Part shown: positions 4,942 to 21,713 of the stretch, piece after piece
How the letters are laid out: every line of letters starts with the position of its first letter
Position numbering within the stretch: the first letter of the stretch is position 1
NCBI GenBank assembly: GCA_964036665.1
Contig: OZ038531.1
Coordinates: 14,818,168-14,882,167, forward strand
DNA: 64,000 nucleotides
DNA from: Gordius sp. MW1
Lineage: Eukaryota > Nematomorpha > Gordioida > Gordea > Gordiidae
Reading direction: 5' to 3'
Notes under the pieces: model-generated
Told to the model about the DNA's origin: nothing
Databases searched by the model: none
Seen by the model: only the letters and a program-made list of their open reading frames with translations
Program-made: the position numbers and the translations under genes

Positions 4942-5709
4942 CTATATATACATCGAATTATGACGATTAAAAAATAATTCATCATCAATTCTAAGTGCGA
5001 TGGAGTATACAATATTTTTGGTTAGTCCATCTTTAGCCAACACAAACAAACGGGATGGTTTACCCACGCAAGAACATGCCACGTATAGCTGTCTGAGGGA
5101 AAAGCATGATGTGCCCAAACCTAAGCCACAAATAGACATCGTTTGACTTTGAGTCTTATTAATTGTCAATGCGAATGCGAATCTAATTGGAAATTGAATA
5201 CTTTTGAATTATAGGGATTCGTGGCAGTAATACATTTTCATCTCGGAACTTGCCATTCAAAATGGTGACTTCGATAACAATTTTCATACATTTTTTAATG
5301 ACTAATCGTGTGCCATTACACAGCCGTGGTGGGTTTAAATTACGAAGCAAAATTACCGGAGATCCAAACTTCAATTGTAAAAGTGCGGGGGCATGGCTGA
5401 CAAATCCAATGAATTCAAAAACTAATTGGATAATTTACAGCTTCGTTAGCATCGCAAACTGTATCGACAGATTTGTGTGACACCAAGTCACCTGGCAACA
5501 ACTGTTGTATCTTGGAATTTAAATTAATGACATCCACATTTTTTGCAGCCAATATTGCTCTTTCGGACACCCAGGCAAGATTTTTGTACTGTGTATATCT
5601 GGAAATATGTGGTCGATGAAAGCATTTTGCGAGTCGACGATTGTGCAAAAATCCGACGGTAATTATAGGCATCCAGTAATTTCATGCAAAGCAACTTTTC
5701 CATCATCAA
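4942..5709 (-). pseudogene. Helitron helicase, C-terminal segment
   Basis: Minus-strand pieces read in order: WVSERAILAAKNVDVINL and LLPGD (5415-5672); FGSPVILLRNLNPPRLCNGT with the ENVLLPRIPI end (5183-5374); and QSQTMSICGLGLGTSCFS with RQLYVACSCVG (4942-5169). These correspond to late Pif1-like helicase motifs (V-VI region). Frames differ between pieces, so it is a pseudogene. A segment between the first two seems deleted. The upstream half of the helicase lies beyond the LTR insertion. Confidence 0.85.
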
Positions 5710-5733
5710 TATCTAACAGTTGTTTTAAGAATG

Positions 5734-6336
5734 TATCGTATCCGGAGATAGAGTACGATACGATGATAATATATCCCCCCCCCCATGTTCATTTATACAA
5801 AGGGACGCCGACGTTACACGTATCTCCCTTTCTAATTAATTTCAGGATGCGTGTTGATTCCCCCCCCCCCAACGCGCATATACGCACGTATATAATAATA
5901 CGCGAGAATGTAGTCTACGACACCATCTGCCTTTCCTGGCCATGCTATTTAATGTGTAGTTGTAGTACATAGAACTTTATTCCTTTACATTTAATTTTTA
6001 ATACGCGTATGTTATTCCCCCCCCCCCCGACGCGATTATACTTATTTATTTATTTCCCCCATATATGATTGTTGATCAACAAGAACACGCATTAGTGATT
6101 TTGATATACGCGTGTTATCGTATTGATAATATTGATATCATTAATTTATTCTCGGAGATAAATAAAATATAGTACTATGTGAAGGTGCAAATTCAACTTT
6201 ATTTAAAGGCTTTAAGCCCGGCCATCTCCCAATATCTTCCCTTAATTATTAAAATAGATTCCTAATTATTCCCCCTTCCTTTTCAAACTCTTTCTTAAAT
6301 ATATTTTTAAATCGTATTCCTTTTAGGAATACGATA
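5734..6336 (+). repeat. 5' LTR
   Basis: 603 bp, near-identical to 6941-7536. Long C runs occur near 5776, 5862 and 6017. Short inverted ends TATCGTAT/ATACGATA bound it. AATAAA-type motifs occur near 6160. Confidence 0.88.
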
Positions 6337-6940
6337 CTGGTATCAGAATGAAAAGTCCCACTCCCAAGTTGGTTAGAAATAATTTGGTACAAATCTCGTC
6401 CCCCCCCCCCCTTCTGCGGAATAGCATAAATCATATTCTAGAGATTAAATTCTTATAACTGGAGAAGAACAACAAGCAAATTATTACCTGATTGCGTCAA
6501 AACTAAGGGAAAACTAAATCGATGTTAGTGCTAATAAAGCTATAGATAAGGTCGGATCTGTGCCTATGACCATAATTGTTAAGGAAGCTGGTGTCTCCTT
6601 AATTTTCCGATTGAGGGCAAGAGTTCCTCATGTATGGAGGTAAAGGCGTATACAAATGCTGAGAATTCCTCATTTAAGATGGATCGTAGGACAAGAGTAT
6701 CCGATAACGAATGGCAAGAAGCACCGAATGAAGGATTATTCCCACATTATTTTATGAAAGGTTACACATGTCCTATATAATAATAAGCGAGATTCATTTT
6801 TATAATTAGTATAATATTGTTGATATATTATATTATGGCTATAATAATATGGTTTAATATTGTAAGTCAGTCGAATTTAGTAGATAGATTTTTGTCTAAA
6901 TATCCCTAACCCTGGCCCTAATTTTTGGAAAAAGGGAAGG
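6337..6940 (+). other. Interior of LTR element (possible PBS and PPT, no ORF)
   Basis: It starts C-TGGTATCAGAATG. The first ten bases equal the initiator-Met type primer-binding site known from plant Copia elements; the matching tRNA in this host was not checked. It ends in a 14-base purine tract (6927-6940). A C10 run lies near 6400. No gag or pol similarity was seen, so the element would need enzymes from elsewhere. Confidence 0.6.
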
Positions 6941-7536
6941 TATCGTATCCGGAGATACGAGTACGATAGGAGTATAATATATTCCCTCCATGTTCATTTA
7001 TACAAAGGGAGGCCGTCGTTACACGTATCTCCCTTTCTAATTAATTTCAGTACGCGTGTTGATTCCCCCCCCCCCAACGCGCATATACGACACGTATATG
7101 ATAATACGCGAGAATGTAGTCTACGACACCATCTGCCTTTCCTGGCCATGCTATTTAATGTGTAGTTGTAGTACATAGAACTTTATTCGTTTACATTTAA
7201 TTTCTAGTACGCGTATGTTATTCCCCCCCCCCTTCGACGCGCCTATACTTATTTATTTATTTCCCCATATATGATTGTTGATCAACATGAACACACATCA
7301 GTGATTTTGATATACGCGTGTTATCGTATTGATAATATTGATATCATTAATTTATTCTTGGAGATAAATAAAATATAGTACTATATGAAGCTGCAAATTC
7401 AACTTTGTTTAAAGGCTTTAAGCCCGGCCATCTCCCAATATCTTCCCTCAATTATTAAAATAGATTCCTGTTATTTCCCCTTCCTTTCAAACCCTTTTTG
7501 TATATTTTAAATCGTATTCCTTTTTGGAATACGATA
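6941..7536 (+). repeat. 3' LTR
   Basis: 596 bp, directly repeated from 5734-6336, with C runs at the second and third positions (near 7066 and 7223). Divergence between the LTRs is small and mostly in homopolymers, implying a fairly recent insertion. Confidence 0.88.
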
Positions 7537-7542
7537 GAATGT

Positions 7543-8600
7543 TTCAGCGGATGGATTTTTAAGCATATGAACGCGCATGTTTAATCTCAGTTCTAACTTT
7601 TCAACATTACGCCACAGTGACGATGATTTTAAGCAAGCGTTGATCCATCAGCGTACGTTGAACGTGGAATGACGGGAAGTGTTTGTCTGAAATCACCTGA
7701 AAGGAGTAACAGATGCGGCCAAATAGTTTGTCGTTGTTATTTATATCCTTCACTGTCCTGTCCAATGCCTCAAAGGAATGTTTGTGTGCCATAGTACATT
7801 CATCCCAGATGATCACTTTACACCGTTTGAGTACCGTGGCCATGGACGATTCTTTTTTTATGTTGCACTGCCTCTGGGTTACTTTAGATATTTAATGGCA
7901 GCTTAAATGCAGATTGAGCTGTTATGCCTCCATCTAATAAAGTTGCTGCAATGCCAGATAATGCAACGGTCAATGCGATGCCATTTTTTAGATCGTATCT
8001 CGGCAAGAATTATCGAAATGAGAGATGTTTTGCGTTCCACCTGGTGCATCCAAAAAAAAAGAAACCACCTTGTCCTGCCGAAACTGCCAGCATAATGCGG
8101 TCGTAAATATTTTTTTGTTCAGTTAGTAGTGGGACATTGCGAGTAACAATTGCTGCCATTTCTACAGTATTGTCCTGCAGTTCAAGACACATATTAGTGT
8201 TGAGTAAATCAGATGCACTTCGATTTGTAGAACTCATACCAAAATGACTAATTTTTAAATTGGCAATGACAATGCAAAGATCCTCACTATCAATGCTTCA
8301 TTGTACATTGCGTCGCTGAATAATATTAATAGCTCGTTTCACCTTAAACGATATCGATGTAATTCATCAGCCATTGAATCTTTGTGCTTATCCCACAACG
8401 TTTGTGCTCGGGCCGGGAAACATGTAGTCAACACTATAGCGAATAGTAGACGAATTTGTGTTGCTGTAGAGTTTAATGCTGCTTTAGTAAGCATACTGTC
8501 CCAATGGTTGTCATCATCTAGCAAGCCTAGTGCAAGGCATGCATCTTTATACGATGGATACTAATGTCCATTTACTTTACGTATATCGTGAAATGACAAT
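7543..8600 (-). pseudogene. Helitron helicase, N-terminal segment
   Basis: Minus strand. The frame at 7607-7843 reads KVIIWDECTMAHKHSFEALD, the Walker B-like motif II of Pif1-type Helitron helicases, then RTVKDINNN and LFGRICYSFQVISD. The frame at 8010-8237 carries LTEQKNIYDRIMLAVSAGQGGFFF, the motif I (Walker A) region with the GKT replaced by frameshifted sequence. The frame at 8339-8524 matches the linker before the helicase. Stops and shifts separate the pieces. Confidence 0.82.
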
Positions 8601-9479
8601 GGGCCGGTAAATTACTTAGTCTGCCTAAAATTTACTGTATATACACGACCCAAAATGTTTGATTTGAATAAACCAGGGCATGTATTAACTGGTTTGCCTT
8701 GCTTGCGGGGCATCCATTTTTTCAATTGAGTCCACGTAAACTAGGGGGGTATTTATAAATAGAGTGATGTTCGCACGAAGGCACCAAAAGCATCGGCACG
8801 ATTCCACAATTCAAAAAAATCGGTGAGTGTAGTTTTTAGTGGATTTATAGCACGATCAAGCGCGGTCTCGTTCGTGAAAAATACACGCTGGCCGTTTTCA
8901 ATATGGACAGCTAAATGGATAACTGCTGGATTCCGTTCATGAATTGGGAAACCAAAGATCCGCCAAACAGCTTCATTGAAGCTTATGTACCGGTTAATTT
9001 AAGTAGTTAGTTATTTCATCAATGTAATTCAATGGAAGAGCATTCCGATTGGTATTATCAGTTCTAAATACAGCCATGCGCTTCACCGGACTGCAGAACT
9101 CAACATTATTATGAGCATTGAATGTTTTGCAACAGAGGTGAATATAGTGCAACCCAACGATTGTCAATGTCAATGGTTGCGTTACTGATAGTTTTCGTAA
9201 ATTTGTCCGCCATTATCGGTACTTCTTCGACGATATATAGGATATCCGTCGACATGTGTGACCGTATCATTGATGAAATCTTTAGGAAAACACTTTGTAC
9301 ACTTTCCATCCAACATGCAAGGCGATGAACGATTCAAATATCCACATGGGCTATGAATCATGTTTGTAGTAACAATATCAAATAATAATTTCTCAGCAGA
9401 CGGATTTAGAATTTCTGCAGAAATTAAACTATCGATGTCTTCAGGACGTATTTTGTCGACGAACCAAATCAAAATGTGA
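8601..9479 (-). pseudogene. Helitron Rep domain, part after the HUH motif
   Basis: Minus-strand frame 9182-9472 reads IWFVDKIRPEDIDSLISAEI, then CGYLNRSSPCMLDGKCTKCF and VDGYPIYRRRSTDNGG. These are the conserved blocks immediately downstream of the HUH motif in Helitron Rep proteins. Bases 8601-9100 hold weaker matches in several frames. The segment begins right at the hAT MITE target duplication, so the HUH motif is split between here and 10534. Confidence 0.82.
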
Positions 9480-9487
9480 GCATGAGG

Positions 9488-10525
9488 CAGGGTTTCTTTC
9501 AGGGGGTAGCCCGGAGAAATTCCAAATCCCCCCCGGAAAGTTTTGATTGAAGCATGAACTCAAGTTCCATCATGAAGTCATAAATTATATTTATAATCTA
9601 AAATTGAAATTCAATAAATTATTTTAATTTGTCAATAAAAATATATGAAATTGGCGAAATTAAATTTTTTTTACAAATAAGGTTGAAATCATTCAAAGAC
9701 ATCATTTTTTAACATCTGTGAACCCTAATTTAAACGAGTTTTTAATAGGCGTTTTTTACAATCTTGAAAGTTACAAATTATCTTTAATTAAAAAATATCA
9801 ATAGGTAAATAAACATAAATAATTGCTTTTAGAATTATTAAATCATTATCTTACATGTAAACTTAAAAAGAATTATTAATAGATTCTATTGTTTGTTTTT
9901 TATTGATATAATATGCTTATTGCATGTCTGGTAAATATAATAGTACTCCTTTACACTACTTTAGTAAAAAGGAAAAGCCTAATAAAAAAGATGGTAAATA
10001 TGATTTAATTTGGACTAATTTTAATTATGCAACAGGTGAAGATGTGAATAATTGTTCTGTAGAAAAAACTTTGGTTTGTTCCATTCAATGTCATAATGAA
10101 AAGGATGGTATTTATATTTATATTACTAAGAAAAAATTGGTCATTTTAAATGTATATTAACTAATAATAATTTGCTTGCAAGCATATAAAAAGATCTTTT
10201 TTTGTCTAATCAATTATGTATAACGAAAAGGTGAGGATAATTCTGCGGAGAAACTGGTTTATTCCATAGATTGTCAAGTATGCCTTTAAAAAACAAAGAA
10301 GAATTCGGTTAGTTTTTAAAAGAACACTTGCCCCTTAAAATATTACATGTATTTATCTAATGATTATACGTGTATGTATCTATTTATATATCACTTATAT
10401 CACCAATAAAAATCAGTAAATATTATACAAAATGGTTTAGCAATTAAAAAAAATTTACCCCCCCCCCCCGAAAGTTGAAAATACCCCCCCCCCCCCCCGG
10501 AGCATTTTTTCTGAAAGAAACCCTG
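9488..10525. mobile_element. 1038-bp hAT non-autonomous element inside the Helitron HUH motif
   Basis: Inverted ends CAGGGTTTCTTTCAG and CTGAAAGAAACCCTG match perfectly. An exact 8-bp target duplication GCATGAGG flanks it (9480-9487 and 10526-10533). CAGGG tips plus 8-bp duplications are hAT hallmarks. Subterminal C/G runs near 9525, 10460 and 10485 are inverted copies of each other. The interior is AT-rich with one short frame at 9924-10160. Confidence 0.92.
9924..10160 (+). CDS. short ORF in hAT element, function unknown
   Basis: 78 codons starting MSGKYNSTPLHYFSKKEK, with a lysine-rich N-terminus and two possible Cys pairs. It could be the remnant of a transposase first exon, since hAT MITEs often keep it, but I recognise no domain. 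Whether it is expressed is unknown. Confidence 0.3.
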   Translation: MSGKYNSTPLHYFSKKEKPNKKDGKYDLIWTNFNYATGEDVNNCSVEKTLVCSIQCHNEKDGIYIYITKKKLVILNVY

Positions 10526-10533
10526 GCATGAGG

Positions 10534-10994
10534 TAATCCTTGCTTTTGCCACTCAACTGAATACATCCAGCAACGTGCAGGGCCAAATATATGTAATTTT
10601 GTAATGGAATTAATGAAAGACTTTAATTTTTGTTTAAACACCCGTGCCGTAATGTCACGACAATGTATTGCATTTTGTCCTGGTAATAGCAACGATGTAA
10701 TCTCCTGCCATTTTGGATTACATGTAAACGTGATTAAAAAACACAGTTGTCCGTATTCGCGTACGAAAGCCATAGCATCCTGTATGTATTCTTGCATGTG
10801 ACGTGGACTACCTACGTCCAATGATGGTAGAATATTAAAGTTATCAATTTCAGCAGTGGGGGCGTTGTTCGCAATAGCGTCTTTGAATGTATTCTTCCGC
10901 ACAATTTTCTGTTGATTATATCTTAAGTATCGTAGACGTTCGCTCTTTACCTTCACATACATGTCGACCATGAATTGTTGGCAAAGTTCACAGG
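10534..10994 (-). pseudogene. Helitron Rep domain, part before and including HUH
   Basis: The minus strand begins at the BEL junction with CQQFMVDMYVKVKSERLRYL, then DVGSPRHMQEYIQDAMAFVR, LCFLITFTCNPKWQEI and WQKQGLPHA. These are the standard Rep blocks of Helitrons: VDMY, FTCNPKW, and GLPHAH of the HUH nuclease. The last motif is cut by the hAT MITE after PHA; the missing H and following ILIWF-type residues lie at 9479. The stretch is open over about 150 codons. Confidence 0.88.
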
Positions 10995-11950
10995 ATTGAA
11001 GATAATTACTTTGAGGCAATATCAAAGGCATATAGTCTCATCAACCAATCTCACACACTAACAATCTTTCACACATCATCACATCATATTTCAAGGTCAA
11101 ACATCATAATTCCCACATCATCACATAATATTTTACAATTCAAACATCATATCATCAATCAATCTCACACACCAACAATCTCTCAACCATCATTAACATC
11201 TGGGATACTACAACTTCTACGAATAGAATTGCCTCACTTTGACGGGAATTGTGAGAATTCTGTAAAAGCTGCTGGATTAAATCAATTCCAATACATCCCA
11301 GGACTTTCCCCGCTACAAAACTCCTTTTCAATGTCCTACTCCAATAACAGCAGTTATACCATGAACCATTTAAATACGTTGAATTTTATGTCTTCCACCT
11401 CTTCAAACACCCTCAATTAATCTCCACTCCCACCCACACCCTCCTCTAACCTCAAAGACATTCCCCTACCAACACTGCCATCCATAGCTCAAGTTGATGC
11501 TGATTACAGGGCTTTGGACCACGAAGCTAGGCACCAGTCTAGAAAGTCCAACGATGTACCCACTTCAGGCTCTAAGGATTACCGTCATACTTCGGTTAGC
11601 AGGGATCGCAAGCATCGTGGTAAGAAGCGTGAAAGGGGTCAGGATGGCGATAGGAATCATAGCAAAGGTAACAGAGATTATGATTCGGACAAAAGGCCAC
11701 GACACAAAGATTCTTCCCCCGTCAACAACAGCAGAAGAGGGAGCGAAAAAGAGGATAGAGATCGGAGAGGGAGGGATGGGGGTAGTGATTTTTGGTCAAG
11801 GAAGTATTTAAATAAATTTCAGAATGTAAAGGTCGGTCAACTTGTAATAACTAAGAAGGATAATACGCCACCTCTCAAATAGCCTTTCCCCATATTCAAG
11901 AAATTTACCCAGGCTCCGATAATGCTGTCGTAATAATTCTGTGTGCTTCT
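10995..11950 (+). pseudogene. Left BEL/Pao copy: gag piece, SR-rich segment, integrase C-terminus
   Basis: Plus-strand reading: [11 protein letters not shown] and SLINQ (gag), [10 protein letters not shown] (gag DUF1759 start), then [20 protein letters not shown] and an SR/RS tract (11560-11790). After 11790 the sequence becomes KYLNKFQNVKVGQLVITKKD with NTPPLK, the C-terminus of BEL/Pao integrase. A stop at about 11418 breaks the frame where the right arm reads Tyr. It has no LTR on its outer side. Confidence 0.75.
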
Positions 11951-13361
11951 ATCGAGATAAGGTATTCAATTTTGCAGTTGTCCAATTAGGTTCAGAGATA
12001 GAAGTGAAAGAAGAGCCAATCTAAAAATGCGCGGGTGTTAAGCATGATAAGTCATTTGGATCTTCTGACAATTGTGTAAGAGGTCTTGAATTAATGATAG
12101 CTTCGATTTGAATCGACAGTGTGGTGATTTCTTCATAAGATAATAAGGCTTGACAGAATACTCTTCTCAAATGATGCTGAATGGATTTGACGGCTGCTTC
12201 CCATAAACCACCAAAATGAGATGCTCTTGGTGGAATAAAGTGCCAATTAAAGCCCTGTTCTGCTAGTGTCAACTTTATTCTTTTGTGGTTGGATACCCAA
12301 AAATGTTTCAAAATTGATACTGTCTTATTTTTAAGAGACAGACATCGGATGAAACCTTGTTTGTAAGAATCTCCCAATTTTTTAACCTGATCCTGTTGGG
12401 TCATTTTGCCTTTCCTTGCGATAAAACGTTTTAAAGCATTAAGAAATGCTTCAGTGGAATTCTTAGGCACTCTACCTATCCACAACGTTCTTGAAAAAAC
12501 GGTGATGCAATCGGCTTTGCCGGCTACAGGACCCTGGTAGGTGCTAGCGTTGCTTGAGGATTTATGCCGTTGCGAAATGCTTTCGCTCTTATCGGAGGTA
12601 GTCTCGCGTGACCTTTTTTTGTAAGAATCACTACCCCCATCCCTCCTTCTCCGATCTCTGTCCTCTTTTTCGCTCCCTCTTCTGCTGTTGTTGACGGGGG
12701 AAGAATCTTTATGTCGTGACCTTTTGTCCGAATCATAATCTCTGTTACCTTTGCTATGATACCTATGGTTATCCTGACCCCTTTCACGCTTTTTACCACG
12801 ATGCTTGCGATCCCTGCTAACCGAAGTATGACGATAATCCTTAGAGCCTGAAGTGGGTACATCGTTGGACTTTCTGTGCCTACCATCGGGGTCCAAAGCC
12901 CTGTAATCAGCATCAACTTGAGCTATGGATGGCAGTGTTGGTAGGGGAACGTCTTTGACGTTAGAGGAAGGTGTGGGTGGGAGTGGAGAATAGTTGAGGG
13001 TGTTTGAAGAGGTGGAAGACATAAAATTCAACGTTTTTAAATGGTTCATGGTATAACTGCTGTTATTGGAGTAGGACATTGAAAAGAAGTTTTGTAGCGG
13101 GGAAAGTCCTGGGATGTATTGGAATTGATTTGATGCAGCAGTTTTTACAGAATTCTCATAATTCCCGTCAAAGTGAGGCAATTCTATGCGTGGAAGTTGT
13201 AGTATCCCATATGTTGATGATGGTTGAGAGATTGTTGGTGTGTGAGATTGATTGATGATATGATGTTTGAATTGTAAAATATTATGTGATGATGGGGAAT
13301 TATGATGTTTGACCTTGAAATATGATGTGATGATGTGTGAAAGATTGTTGGTGTGTATCAT
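11951..13361 (-). pseudogene. Right BEL/Pao copy: gag/SR-RRM/integrase chimeric ORF
   Basis: One open frame of 446 codons (12021-13361). Order: HHN-rich leader; [10 protein letters not shown] (gag); proline/serine region and a long RS/RD-rich tract (about residues 165-265); [20 protein letters not shown], the start of an RRM of SCAF4/8 type; then [55 protein letters not shown] of BEL/Pao integrase. The Asp-Asn-Gly segment of integrase is absent, so it cannot be catalytic. The joint falls at the STEAF residues. The SCAF assignment is inference from the RRM start and RS content. Confidence 0.72.
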
Positions 13362-13639
13362 TGGTTGATGAGACTCTGTGCCTTTGATATTGCCTCAAAG
13401 TAATTATCTTCAATCTCCTTTTGCTCATGAGAGCTTTCATCATTTTCATCAACTTGTTCTTGAAAATCCACATACCGTGAATGTAACCATTTAATCTCTT
13501 CGAGTCTTAATTTTATATTGATTATGTCCTCAGATGATTCTACATAATCCATAAATCTAGCAAGGCTTTGTACAAATGCTGTCTTTTTCTTTTCAAATTT
13601 TGCAATTATGCTAATCTGGTATCCGGCTCGAAGGACCAA
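13358..13639 (-). pseudogene. BEL/Pao gag N-terminus
   Basis: About 93 codons ending SKAQSLINQ and a stop, with KLRLEEIKWLHSRYVDFQEQ and [20 protein letters not shown], a coiled-coil-prone pattern typical of the BEL/Pao gag start. It lies directly downstream of the primer site, as expected, and ends just before the chimeric frame. Confidence 0.75.
13621..13638 (-). promoter_or_regulatory. tRNA-Tyr primer-binding site
   Basis: The minus strand reads TGGTCCTTCGAGCCGGAT, complementary to the 3' 18 nt of eukaryotic tRNA-Tyr including CCA. It lies four bases downstream of the LTR end. Confidence 0.8.
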
Positions 13640-13644
13640 AAATG

Positions 13645-13961
13645 TTTTATGAAGTACTGAAAATATGTATAATGGAAATATAATAATAAAATATGTAAGA
13701 TATATGAAATATAAATAAAGTAATTGCTTAAGTGTAGGAGTGATGATGTTTGATATTGAATGAATGTGTATGTGATGATGTGTGAATTTGTATGTCCGTG
13801 TATATGTGTTGACGTGTATATGTGATGACGTGTTGTTTGAATGATGTATATGAATTGAAAAATAAGAATGTGTTCTAGAAAAATGATATAATCAATGAAT
13901 GTCTGTTGTTTATGTTATGGGTTAACATGTGTGTATATGTTGTTCATGTTATGTGTTAACA
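13645..13961 (-). repeat. BEL/Pao 5' LTR
   Basis: It starts TGTTAACACAT at 13961 on the minus strand and ends AAAACA next to the primer site. It is rich in GATGATGTG/CATCACATC repeats that resemble the outer part of both inverted arms. No partner LTR is left in the window, so the end was inferred from the TG...CA form and the PBS. Confidence 0.65.
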
Positions 13962-14251
13962 GTACCTGTTGGGGGATCTCGTTGTTTAATGTTTATGCAA
14001 TATCCATCTTGTCCTTTCCAAAAAATTATCAGATATTGGAGAGCGTCATATGAACGGTGGGTATCAGCAATGAACTGAAGATTGTTATCTCTTCTTCGAA
14101 TCACGATTTGGCACGAAGCCGTACGGTCCCCAACCATGATTCCGGCAACGTCATCAACTACAGGTGCATTAAATCTACGAATGTGCTCTCCAACTGGTGT
14201 TTTATCATAATCGATGACAATAGCGTAATTGTCATTTAGTAATTTGGGCAT
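13962..14251 (-). pseudogene. Helitron Rep domain, N-terminal block
   Basis: The minus strand reads MPKLLNDNYAIVID, GEHIRRFNAPVVDDVAGIM, THRSYDALQYLIIFWKGQDG and NIKQRDPPTG. These are well-known Helitron N-terminal blocks (GEH..RFNAP, HRSYDALQY). The frame is open for 100 codons and stops at the BEL LTR junction; the block normally following, before VDMY, is missing. Confidence 0.88.
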
Positions 14252-14470
14252 GTGTGATTTAAATAATTTTCATAATTCATTGTGCTCATTCAACAAAACG
14301 TCCAGTTCGCTGAGCGCCTGGCAAAAGGTGAATCGAGGTTGTTGTAGCTAAACGTGCATCCACGCGATTTGCGAGTGCGCGTTAGGAGTCGTCACCACCC
14401 ATAATGTAATTTGTAAATATTTATAAGATTCATTTGGCATCGGTAGCAATGAACCCACTTTGTGAAAAAC

Positions 14471-14767
14471 CTAGCCTTTTATTTTAAACGTTGAATTAAA
14501 TTGTTGACCGATTGCAGCATTATTTTGAACTATTTCTGTTGCTCCGAACGATGTCATTTGGAAGCATGAATTGAATGTCCGAATTGACTTCAGGAACAGG
14601 CTAGAATCAGGATCCGTACCGATAAGTAAACCGTGCAATGGTTCAGGTGGTGTTTCAATCTCCGTTAGTCGAACTTTTCCTGATGCGCAACACATCCCGG
14701 CTGACTCATTTTTATATTTAAGTGCAAGACAATGAGGACATACCTTGTCCATAGTACCAATGACCAC
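14471..14767 (-). pseudogene. Helitron N-terminal zinc-finger block
   Basis: The minus strand reads CPHCLALKYKNESAGMCCAS, GKVRLTEIETPPEPLHGLL and IRTFNSCFQMTSFGA. This CxxC...CC block precedes the Rep domain in most animal Helitrons. It is open for about 98 codons; bases 14252-14470 are a frameshifted join to the Rep block. Confidence 0.88.
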
Positions 14768-14896
14768 TTTGGAATTGGCGTAATATTTAACATCAGGCTC
14801 ATACTGGAATGCTAGTCAAAGGAATGAAGCCGATTTAAATGCTCGATGTACTTGTTGGCGTTGTTGGTCATTTTCTCTACGTGTGTTGATTACAAA

Positions 14897-15103
14897 TCAG
14901 CGGGGTTGTTTTTTTGATCTTTGTTGATTTTGTTCATCTCGTGCCTCTTGCGATTGTGATTTACGTATTTGGGCCATCCTCTCACGCATTTCTGCATTGT
15001 TTTGTAGGATTTGTTCGTCTATTATATGTGCTCCAATATTTGTCATGACTGCATTTTGTTTCGTTTGACGACCCAAATTGTTCCTTTTGCGTTTAGCTGG
15101 CAT
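14897..15103 (-). pseudogene. Helitron protein start
   Basis: The start codon at 15103 gives MPAKRKRNNLGRQTKQNAVM, the usual basic start of Helitron Rep-helicase proteins, followed by Arg/Gln-rich sequence (ERMAQIRKSQSQEARDEQNQ). The frame stops at 14897, before the zinc-finger block, so the ORF is broken early. Confidence 0.85.
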
Positions 15104-19669: not shown

Positions 19670-19715
19670 TTAATCTCTAAACCCCTATGCCCAACTTGTA
19701 AGCGACGAATATGCC

Positions 19716-21713
19716 TTGATAAACACAATTTTTTTTTGGATTCATGGCCCTGTGTCTTCAAGGTGCCCTTCTTCTGGCAAATTACCTCCAACCTGCTTAC
19801 CACTTCCACCCCTGGCTTCTAACTTTGAAGAGGCTCCCCTATTGCCAATCCCTAGCCCTGTCATCCCCCCACCCTTACAATGCTCCCCACAAATTAAACA
19901 ACCGCCTGACTTATCTTGGAGCAATTCTTTTTTAACAAATTCATTTCCTAATACTATCTCTAGAATCCCAAGAGGAGCCAGACCTTCCATTCAACAATCT
20001 CTGCTAAATTTATTCACTTCTATTATCAAAAACCCTTATAACTTAACTAATTGGGACAAACTTTTTAAATTTCCATATCATATCCTTTATGTTAGGGAAC
20101 CTAATGAACATAATTTATCAAGTCTCATCAAGGAATCCCTTCTGTGTTTTAATACTGATGTTCCTATTACATGCACAAGCAAAACAAAACCTTTTCCGCT
20201 GGAATTCTCAATTAACCAAACTGCCAAGCACATCTCAAATAAAATCCATAATTTTAACCCAAAAAGTGCCCTTAGAGCTTTTTATGATAACAACTCAATA
20301 GCCCCTTGTTGCCCTGACTCTTATAGGGAGCTTAATCAAAAACACCCACCAGCATCCTCAGCCAGTAAATACCCCACATCTCCATCATCAATAGTGCTTG
20401 AGTCTTCAGACATCCGTGAAGCCCTTAACTCCTTTCCTTTGGACTCCGCAGCTGGACTTGACGGATGGCGCCCAGTATATTTACAAGATTTACTCAATTT
20501 AAATAATTTAAATACTGAACCCCTTTCAAATTCTATTACTTCTTTTTGTAATATAATCGTTAATGGAAAAATTCCTCATGAAATCATCCCTATTTTATTC
20601 GGTGCAAAACTAATCGCCATCAAAAAACCGGATAACTCAGTTAGACCCATTGCTATTGGAAGCCTTTTTCGCCGTATTATATCTAAGATACTCTGCAAAC
20701 TCATAAAACCCTCCTTGTCCGCTAAGCTCTGCCCTCATCAACTCGGCTTCGGAATTAAAGGCGGCTGTGAGGCAGCCAGCCATGCTGGCCGGATCACAAT
20801 TCAAAATATTTCTACCGAGTCCTGCTTTGTTAAATTAGATTTCGCCAATGCTTTTAACAGTATTCGAAGAGAAACCCTTATTAACACTTTTTTAGCTGAA
20901 TTCCCACAATTTTTAAATTACATTTTATTAAGCTATGGTTCTACAACCAAGCTTCGATTCGGCGAATACGTCATTGATTCGTCCGAAGGCATCCAACAAG
21001 GAGATCCATTAGGCCCTCCCTTGTTTTGTTTGGCCATTCATAATTTAGTCGAGGCAATATCATCTCAGTGTACCCTCGATTTAAATGTTTGGTACCTCGA
21101 CGACGCCACCCTATGTGGCCGCCCGGAGGCGATTAGTAAAGCTATAGAAATTATCAACAATTTTGAACCCACTCTAAATCTTAAATTAAACACGAAAAAA
21201 TGTGAAATCTATCAGGCCCCTAACACTATTGACTTTCCCTTTTTTAAAACTTTTTCAGTTTTAGATAGAGAAAACATATCCCTTTTGGGATCACCTATTG
21301 GCGGTGAAAAATCTCTTTTAAATTTTCTTCATAAAAACCTCGAAATTTTAAAATCTAAAACGGAACTTTTAAAATGCTTGCCTGCACATCATTCTTTTTA
21401 CATAATCAAAAACTATTTTAACATTTCAAAGATTAATCATTGTTTTCGCTCATCTGGTGCATTTTTACACCCAGAAGTTTTAAAGTCGTACGAAGGCTTT
21501 TTAAAAACTTTATTAGAAAAAATTTTAAATTTAAAATTTAACACTAATAATTGGGTTCAGGCATCCCTTCCAACCAAATCTGGAGGATTGGGAATTCGTT
21601 CTCCCGGCAGCATATCGCTAGCTGCTTTTATTTCCTCTTTTAAGTCGGTCCAAAACTTAATTTTTAATCTCACAAAACATGATTCCGACCCTCTGCTAAC
21701 TCAAGCCTTTTAG
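19716..21713 (+). CDS. Reverse transcriptase domain of copy A
   Basis: 665 codons. Motifs by residue: SAAGLDGWRP and RPIAIGSLFRRIISK (fingers, about 245-325), KLDFANAFNS (motif A, about 372), EGIQQGDPLGPPLFCLAI (motif B, about 427), NVWYLDDATLCG (motif C, about 459), LLGSPIGG (motif E) and SLPTKSGGLGI near the end. The catalytic box is YLDD rather than the FADD usual in LINEs. The first codon is not ATG; the real start is probably in the zinc-finger stretch upstream, one frameshift away. It ends in UAG at 21711 with the frame continuing. Family: RLE-type non-LTR element, inferred. Confidence 0.8.
   Translation: MINTIFFWIHGPVSSRCPSSGKLPPTCLPLPPLASNFEEAPLLPIPSPVIPPPLQCSPQIKQPPDLSWSNSFLTNSFPNTISRIPRGARPSIQQSLLNLFTSIIKNPYNLTNWDKLFKFPYHILYVREPNEHNLSSLIKESLLCFNTDVPITCTSKTKPFPLEFSINQTAKHISNKIHNFNPKSALRAFYDNNSIAPCCPDSYRELNQKHPPASSASKYPTSPSSIVLESSDIREALNSFPLDSAAGLDGWRPVYLQDLLNLNNLNTEPLSNSITSFCNIIVNGKIPHEIIPILFGAKLIAIKKPDNSVRPIAIGSLFRRIISKILCKLIKPSLSAKLCPHQLGFGIKGGCEAASHAGRITIQNISTESCFVKLDFANAFNSIRRETLINTFLAEFPQFLNYILLSYGSTTKLRFGEYVIDSSEGIQQGDPLGPPLFCLAIHNLVEAISSQCTLDLNVWYLDDATLCGRPEAISKAIEIINNFEPTLNLKLNTKKCEIYQAPNTIDFPFFKTFSVLDRENISLLGSPIGGEKSLLNFLHKNLEILKSKTELLKCLPAHHSFYIIKNYFNISKINHCFRSSGAFLHPEVLKSYEGFLKTLLEKILNLKFNTNNWVQASLPTKSGGLGIRSPGSISLAAFISSFKSVQNLIFNLTKHDSDPLLTQAF

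Follow-up and report, generated by a model that had tools for sequence, protein, structure and literature searches.

Probable capture of a SCAF4/8-like mRNA by a BEL/Pao-derived LTR element that spread in a Gordius genome and gave rise to two fold-back copies

The window analyzed here, a stretch of 64,000 nucleotides from Gordius sp. MW1, contains between positions 10995 and 13961 an inverted repeat whose two arms both run from BEL/Pao-type gag into RS-rich sequence, which raises the question of how part of a host gene came to lie within a retroelement, and why it lies there twice in opposite orientations. The arms (10994-11793 on the plus strand and 12623-13415 on the minus strand) align as a single gapped match of 800 columns with 94.75% identity or, without gaps, as three blocks of 422, 253, and 121 nt that are 95–96% complementary; their complementarity is far beyond chance. 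The initial annotation, which had described an inverted repeat of about 790 bp leading from gag into RS-rich sequence and then a switch to integrase, is borne out on both points, the second by a single minus-strand frame of 457 aa (13394-12021) that holds the gag tail, the RS-rich part, a peptide that by eye resembles the start of an RRM, and integrase. The gag start of this copy lies in a different frame. The names gag and integrase are based on motifs in the 457-aa frame that we take to be those of the two proteins and on how the hits are arranged in relatives having an A17 domain; in Pfam the fused frame gave no gag or integrase-core match, and DUF5641 alone appeared, below the cut-off (E = 0.0084).

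Read on the minus strand from 13961, the insert consists of an LTR, the 5' part of gag, the RS-rich sequence, the first RRM codons (read by eye), and integrase with a small piece of another part of pol; after this right copy come an inverted integrase piece, inverted RS-rich sequence, inverted gag, and then a Helitron. The features, with the evidence for each, are the following:

10995..13961, minus strand: whole insert, a one-LTR fold-back copy of a non-autonomous BEL/Pao-derived chimera within a Helitron (arms, flanks, family matches)
10444..10993, minus strand: downstream part of the Helitron, with Helitron_like_N (Pfam and genome copies)
10994..11253, plus strand: gag piece of the left arm, truncated at the Helitron junction, with no LTR on that side (arm and family matches)
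11254..11793, plus strand: captured SCAF4/8 cDNA of the left arm, stopping within the RS-rich part (family matches)
11793..11920, plus strand: integrase 3' piece, weakly DUF5641-like, inverted relative to the right copy (Pfam and family matches)
11912..12305, minus strand: C-terminal half of integrase in the right copy, ending in GACAGCA (family matches)
12323..12394, minus strand: 72-bp piece, here inside integrase (position comparison with autonomous copies)
12405..12457, minus strand: integrase piece, with about 9 shared nt overlapping the 3' junction of the host part (autonomous relatives)
12448..13156, minus strand: captured SCAF4/8 cDNA of the right arm and beyond, RS-rich linker and first RRM codons read by eye (parent exons)
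13157..13643, minus strand: leader and BEL/Pao gag 5' part of the right arm, ending in GGGAATTATGAG (same gag in the autonomous copies L048 and L050)
13644..13961, minus strand: 5' LTR, starting with TGTTAACA, inner end approximate (matches LTR pairs of other copies)
13962..14269, minus strand: upstream part of the Helitron (genome copies)

The inner end of the LTR may extend into the leader and gag stretch 13157..13643, and at the position of this LTR other copies of the chimera have 34-bp tandem repeats. Integrase sequence lies between the arms, including the inverted piece 11793..11920, which begins where the right copy breaks off. Because the left arm ends in RS-rich sequence and jumps to integrase 3' sequence, the right arm alone reaches the RRM start. 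The counterpart of the 72-bp piece in autonomous copies is found upstream of the A17 domain, at about 0.8–0.9 kb in most of those compared by position and at 0.25 kb in one, and the piece (12394-12323) appears to be the product of a further switch within the element's pol.

The insert lies inside a Helitron, whose Helitron_like_N domain (PF14214) is recognized in the left flank with an E-value of 9.8e-43; the remains of this Helitron, with helicase pieces identified by eye, occupy 4942-15100 on the minus strand and are one of many similar copies in the genome. Searches with the two flanks, in which the best 40 of 112 and the best 40 of 162 candidates were scored, yielded at least 20 Helitron copies matched by both, and alignments with copies in other parts of the genome extend as far as 13962 on the right side of the insert and 10991 on its left, which confirms its ends. 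The flanks are 136–155 bp apart in 14 of the 20 paired copies and 72, 277, 288, 557, 688, and 1005 bp apart in the other six. From this spacing, about 150 bp of the Helitron target were probably lost at the LTR-less end.

To which gene the RS-rich sequence belongs could be answered within the window's own genome (212 Mb in 12 contigs). The query 13180-12460 gave 29 matches (all 20 candidates scored), five of which form one intron-bearing gene, in five blocks, at C4:8800386-8804229 (C4:8.80 Mb). Three introns of this gene carry splice signals (AATCTAGAAA/GTGAG...AAG/GTCCAACG for the first, AGAAGAGG/GTAAA...AAG/GAGCGAG for the second, and ATCACCG/GTATA...TAG/TCCTCTCG for the third), and the window copy has lost these introns precisely, with exact joins. 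The upstream exons encode a CID that matches SCAF8/SCAF4 structures (E about 7e-17) and the Pfam CID family (1.8e-9), and the CID exon has one match genome-wide; we therefore take the parent to be the single SCAF4/SCAF8-like gene of this genome. Like SCAF4 and SCAF8, which act as anti-terminators (PMC6579486, as far as that source was covered), the parent has a CID exon, RS-rich exons, and the start of an RRM (read by eye), in this order, whereas in the captured piece the CID is absent and very little of the RRM is left, so that it is not a working SCAF copy. The initial annotation had guessed an RRM of the SCAF4/8 type and proposed capture from a host gene; the CID of the parent shows a SCAF4/8-type gene to have been the right guess, the RRM itself being read by eye, and a processed copy from which three introns are exactly absent supports the proposal. 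On this evidence, the capture of host cDNA can be considered as good as shown.

Besides the three introns, the captured part 12448..13156 lacks 108 bp that separate two parent blocks (window 12930/12931). We considered an intron retained in half of the copies at this place and rejected it, because the stretch is open in the parent frame and bounded by CC/CTG...TAA/ATC rather than by GT-AG; it is a deletion of exonic sequence. The piece is missing at seven loci, the window included, and present at seven.

Host-bearing segments number 17 at 15 loci, namely 12 single copies, one remnant, and two inverted repeats with two segments each (the window and C7:18.27 Mb). The remnant (C1:16463850-16465115), which is followed about 3.5 kb downstream by a more complete copy of like orientation, has lost most of its host part and was excluded from the tree and from the counts of the 108-bp piece, LTRs, and selection (as C1:16.464 Mb). 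Of the single copies, 10 of 12 are flanked by LTR pairs, whose divergence is about 2.6–11%, some of these values being rough owing to tandem repeats in the LTRs. The LTRs start with TG and end with CA, except that one LTR of the copy at C2:17.53 Mb ends with CG; the window copy has one LTR. BEL/Pao elements generate target site duplications (TSDs) of 5 bp, and among the single copies we found three exact 5-bp TSDs (ATATC, GGTGG, ATCTT) and three with one mismatch; no TSD could be called in the other six, and both hairpin loci lack one. An exact candidate at the C8:37.15 Mb copy was dropped as it lies well inside the element. We regard the spread of the chimera as an LTR family as demonstrated by the structure of its copies.

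Autonomous relatives of the chimera were found at no fewer than 12 loci, which carry gag, A17 protease, and integrase in order, with 4.05–4.48 kb between the gag and integrase matches; their gag is 79–86% and their integrase 92–94% identical to the window. The counts are lower bounds, given that the best 40 of 141 gag candidates and the best 40 of 124 integrase candidates were scored. Conversely, in the genome search with all 20 candidates scored, none of the matches to the host part coincides with one of these 12 autonomous loci, and none of 107 A17 matches falls at a host-bearing copy. With no protease of their own and little room for a reverse transcriptase in 2.7–3.2 kb, the chimeric elements are a derivative rather than an autonomous member, and the chimera forms a non-autonomous LTR family derived from BEL/Pao. 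Nine A17-bearing units spaced 5.42–5.44 kb apart, with two more beyond, were also noticed at C8:12282174-12353493, apparently a tandem array of BEL/Pao elements.

Our preferred explanation, to which we give a probability of roughly 0.85, combines capture of a spliced SCAF4/8 mRNA, spread as an LTR family, and the formation of fold-back copies. A BEL/Pao LTR retrotransposon would have packaged or copied the spliced mRNA of the single SCAF4/8-like gene; template switching would have linked gag to the cDNA and afterward led back into integrase, yielding a short non-autonomous element made of an LTR, the gag 5' part, the RS-rich part and RRM start of SCAF4/8, the integrase 3' part, and an LTR. Copies of this chimera then came to occupy 15 or more places, autonomous relatives presumably having mobilized them in trans. 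At the fold-back loci, a strand would have extended from the LTR in the forward direction, changed over to the complementary strand close to the 3' end, probably during reverse transcription, and continued back into gag, leaving inverted arms around a single-copy loop.

The hairpin arrangement pointed out in the initial annotation is real in the window and recurs in a second inverted dimer of the chimera at C7:18269627-18274036, which has longer arms and turns inside the 3' LTR; found at two of 15 loci, it is an exception within the family and not its design. At both loci, one arm has the LTR, the other is cut within gag, and the loop is present once. In a tree of 16 segments and the parent, the window arms are sisters (98/96; 4.6% apart) and so are the C7 arms (99/97; 2.4% apart, or about 4.4% over the longest arm match), while the deeper tree is little resolved, with 8 of 14 inner branches open. 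Because the arms are sisters within each inverted repeat, two independent fold-backs are well supported, with the caveat that gene conversion could make arms look like sisters. The C7 turn is reached a few tens of bp into the 3' LTR, and a G-rich tract before it is missing. The window turn lies at the end of the inverted 128-bp integrase piece, which starts where the forward copy stops (GACAGCA/ATTTTGG), a configuration that may reflect the use of a gap in one strand.

Such structures may have arisen in two ways, through a strand switch in the course of reverse transcription or through repair. The second route, in which a normally inserted copy folded back at the DNA level through replication template switching or end-joining of inverted sister strands, is a serious possibility, although we would put it short of an even chance. 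It would account for the window arm that ends in Helitron DNA, with some 150 bp of target missing and no TSD, and for the lack of a TSD at the cut end of the C7 locus as well. It is less easily reconciled with the occurrence of fold-backs at two of 15 loci within this one small family, a frequency that refers to this family alone, and with the location of both turns close to the element's 3' end, the region in which reverse transcription begins and switches.

The manner in which gag and host sequence were joined bears on the template switching that we favor for the capture itself. Host and integrase share about 9 nt (CCACCGAAG) at the 3' join, which is unbroken in every segment looked at except the left window arm, where it is absent; the 5' join is unbroken in the alignments of all 16 segments looked at. 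Two autonomous copies read at the latter junction continue in ordinary gag (GAATTATGAG/GAGTGG) where the chimera has GAATTATGAG/AATTCTG, so that the RS-rich segment does not appear to be the normal gag of a BEL/Pao lineage, which would have spoken against a host origin. The 5' join shares 2 nt (AG) and falls exactly on a parent exon boundary (window 13156/13157), a coincidence that random template switching would seldom give. That the captured part begins at the first base of an exon hints instead at a spliced gag–SCAF transcript, produced by read-through from a BEL/Pao copy upstream of a SCAF exon, with template switching needed for the 3' join only; splicing of a read-through transcript followed by template switching is the course taken in retroviral oncogene transduction. 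The in-frame join agrees with this origin as well. However, searches with two exact patterns gave no gag copy with GT at the break (diverged copies would be missed by such patterns), and both autonomous copies read have GA there. We hold this origin of the 5' join to be tentative and rather unlikely.

Whether the inverted repeat has acquired a function is a separate matter. The initial annotation had pictured dsRNA directed at the host gene and at BEL/Pao gag. The LTR lies upstream on the minus strand, and the window locus could yield an LTR-driven hairpin RNA, a putative dsRNA of about 800 bp that would be diced and would repress SCAF4/8, the BEL/Pao family, or both. Folded with an artificial 4-nt loop, the two arms form 764 pairs; perfect matches to parent exons account for 86 of 689 host 21-mers in the right copy and for 50 of 520 in the left copy, the longest run being 50 nt, and the genome has at least four clusters of Piwi-domain exons, so that an Argonaute system is present. 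Silencing of SCAF4/8 would therefore be possible in principle. Against it, arm divergence at both loci (4.6% in the window; 2.4% or about 4.4% at C7) is about that of the LTR pairs (2.6–11%) and gives no sign of selection for pairing, the overlap in 21-mers between the gag arms and the single autonomous copy tested is small (11 of 239 and 5 of 240), and hairpins exist at just two of 15 loci. We consider a functional hairpin in the window improbable. The broader proposition that LTR chimeras with fold-backs are a birth route of hairpin-RNA loci, the window or C7:18.27 Mb making siRNAs against SCAF4/8 and their own family, is similarly doubtful; if true, a retroelement would have provided three ingredients at once: a copy of the mRNA, its inversion, and a promoter.

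The remaining alternatives concern the arms themselves. Two independent insertions of the chimera in opposite orientations, nested or neighboring, could mimic a hairpin, given how many copies the family has and that an internal deletion is peculiar to the left copy; we rejected this origin, which is very unlikely, because the arms are each other's closest relatives at both hairpin loci with good support, the left side has neither a second LTR nor a TSD, and the same odd topology occurs twice. Inverted duplications are a known type of artefact, but a palindromic chimera of assembly or sequencing is hardly credible, since the arms differ by about 5%, a divergence that speaks against a simple read artefact, one of them has an internal deletion, and the second locus has different break points.

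As to the family as a whole, its substitutions tell how the copies have evolved. Over the host segment, private substitutions in 16 segments are distributed 67:64:65 among codon positions and comprise 54 synonymous and 142 nonsynonymous changes, against 25.5% expected to be synonymous; counted by locus, private (57 synonymous, 165 nonsynonymous) and shared changes (11 and 37) both behave as neutral. The chimera copies, including that of the window, now mutate without visible constraint. The shared counts also led us to reject purifying selection on the captured protein sequence while the element was active. Where the parent differs from every copy, or from every copy but one, the changes are predominantly synonymous (27, vs. 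10 that are not), as expected if most of them fell on the parent, a working gene; these 37 fixed differences may exceed what the age of the copies themselves suggests.

Insertions and deletions show another pattern: all five shared ones are multiples of three, compared with 7 of 26 private ones (Fisher p = 0.0047), a count that rests on five shared events and on alignment variants merged by hand in two cases (C3_4.0i and C7). One shared gap, of 3 bp, is common to each of the seven copies in which the stretch is retained and may be parental; without it the shared count is four of four (p = 0.012). Frames crossing from gag into the host part reach 338 aa in the C2:16.03 Mb copy and 367 aa in one C7 arm, and none of the copies whose frames were tabulated has one frame across the whole chimera. 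Taken with the 457-aa window frame through gag tail, host part, and integrase, the in-frame shared indels suggest that the frame may have been kept open, and hint that frame, not content, mattered while the copies were active. In a weaker form of the siRNA-locus reading, an in-frame gag–SCAF–integrase product may have been useful to the element at that time.

The capture has parallels in published work, which we compare in the parts of each source that were covered. LTR-mediated retroposition through template switching is known in animals and plants (PMC5408686, PMC8232201), both papers citing Tan et al. 2016 (Genome Res 26:1663) for metazoans; the switches take place at short stretches of similarity. 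The chimera resembles those cases in that an intronless piece of host mRNA sits in an LTR element, between LTRs that permit additional rounds of copying; its own joins share about 9 nt on the 3' side and 2 nt on the 5' side. Unlike them, as they are described in the citing papers, it occupies 15 loci, has a single frame through gag tail, host part, and integrase, and shows a further switch within pol and two fold-back copies. Maize Bs1 is a plant LTR element with captured pieces of cellular genes (PMC5408686), and LTR elements carrying captured genes were surveyed in rice and sorghum (PMC3726574). These likewise hold pieces of cellular genes, but fold-back is not recorded for them in the parts covered, and the host here is an animal. 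In the covered part of a BEL/Pao overview, the sole mention of capture concerns env (PMC3118150); among the literature matches listed, which left most subscription journals outside coverage, no title or abstract start describes host-gene capture by BEL/Pao or a fold-back LTR copy. The family is an animal case, present in multiple copies, in which an LTR element acquired a host mRNA and kept spreading, possibly with its frame open.

Hairpin RNA (hpRNA) loci of Drosophila are another point of comparison, being inverted repeats derived from part of a protein-coding gene located elsewhere (PMC10317233). In its covered part, the same source calls the origin of hpRNA genes far from their targets a conundrum, for which retrogene insertion is possible and promoter acquisition a possible problem. 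The window locus shares with them a long inverted repeat similar to a distant gene; it differs in that its arms carry LTR-element sequence with one LTR, and any hpRNA role here is putative. What this genome offers is a traceable chain within one small family, from capture by an LTR element through spread to fold-back, which occurred twice. Elsewhere in the window, a plus-strand open frame of 679 aa (19674-21713) reads by eye as a non-LTR reverse transcriptase (FVKLDFANAFNS, GIQQGDPLGP, WYLDDATL).
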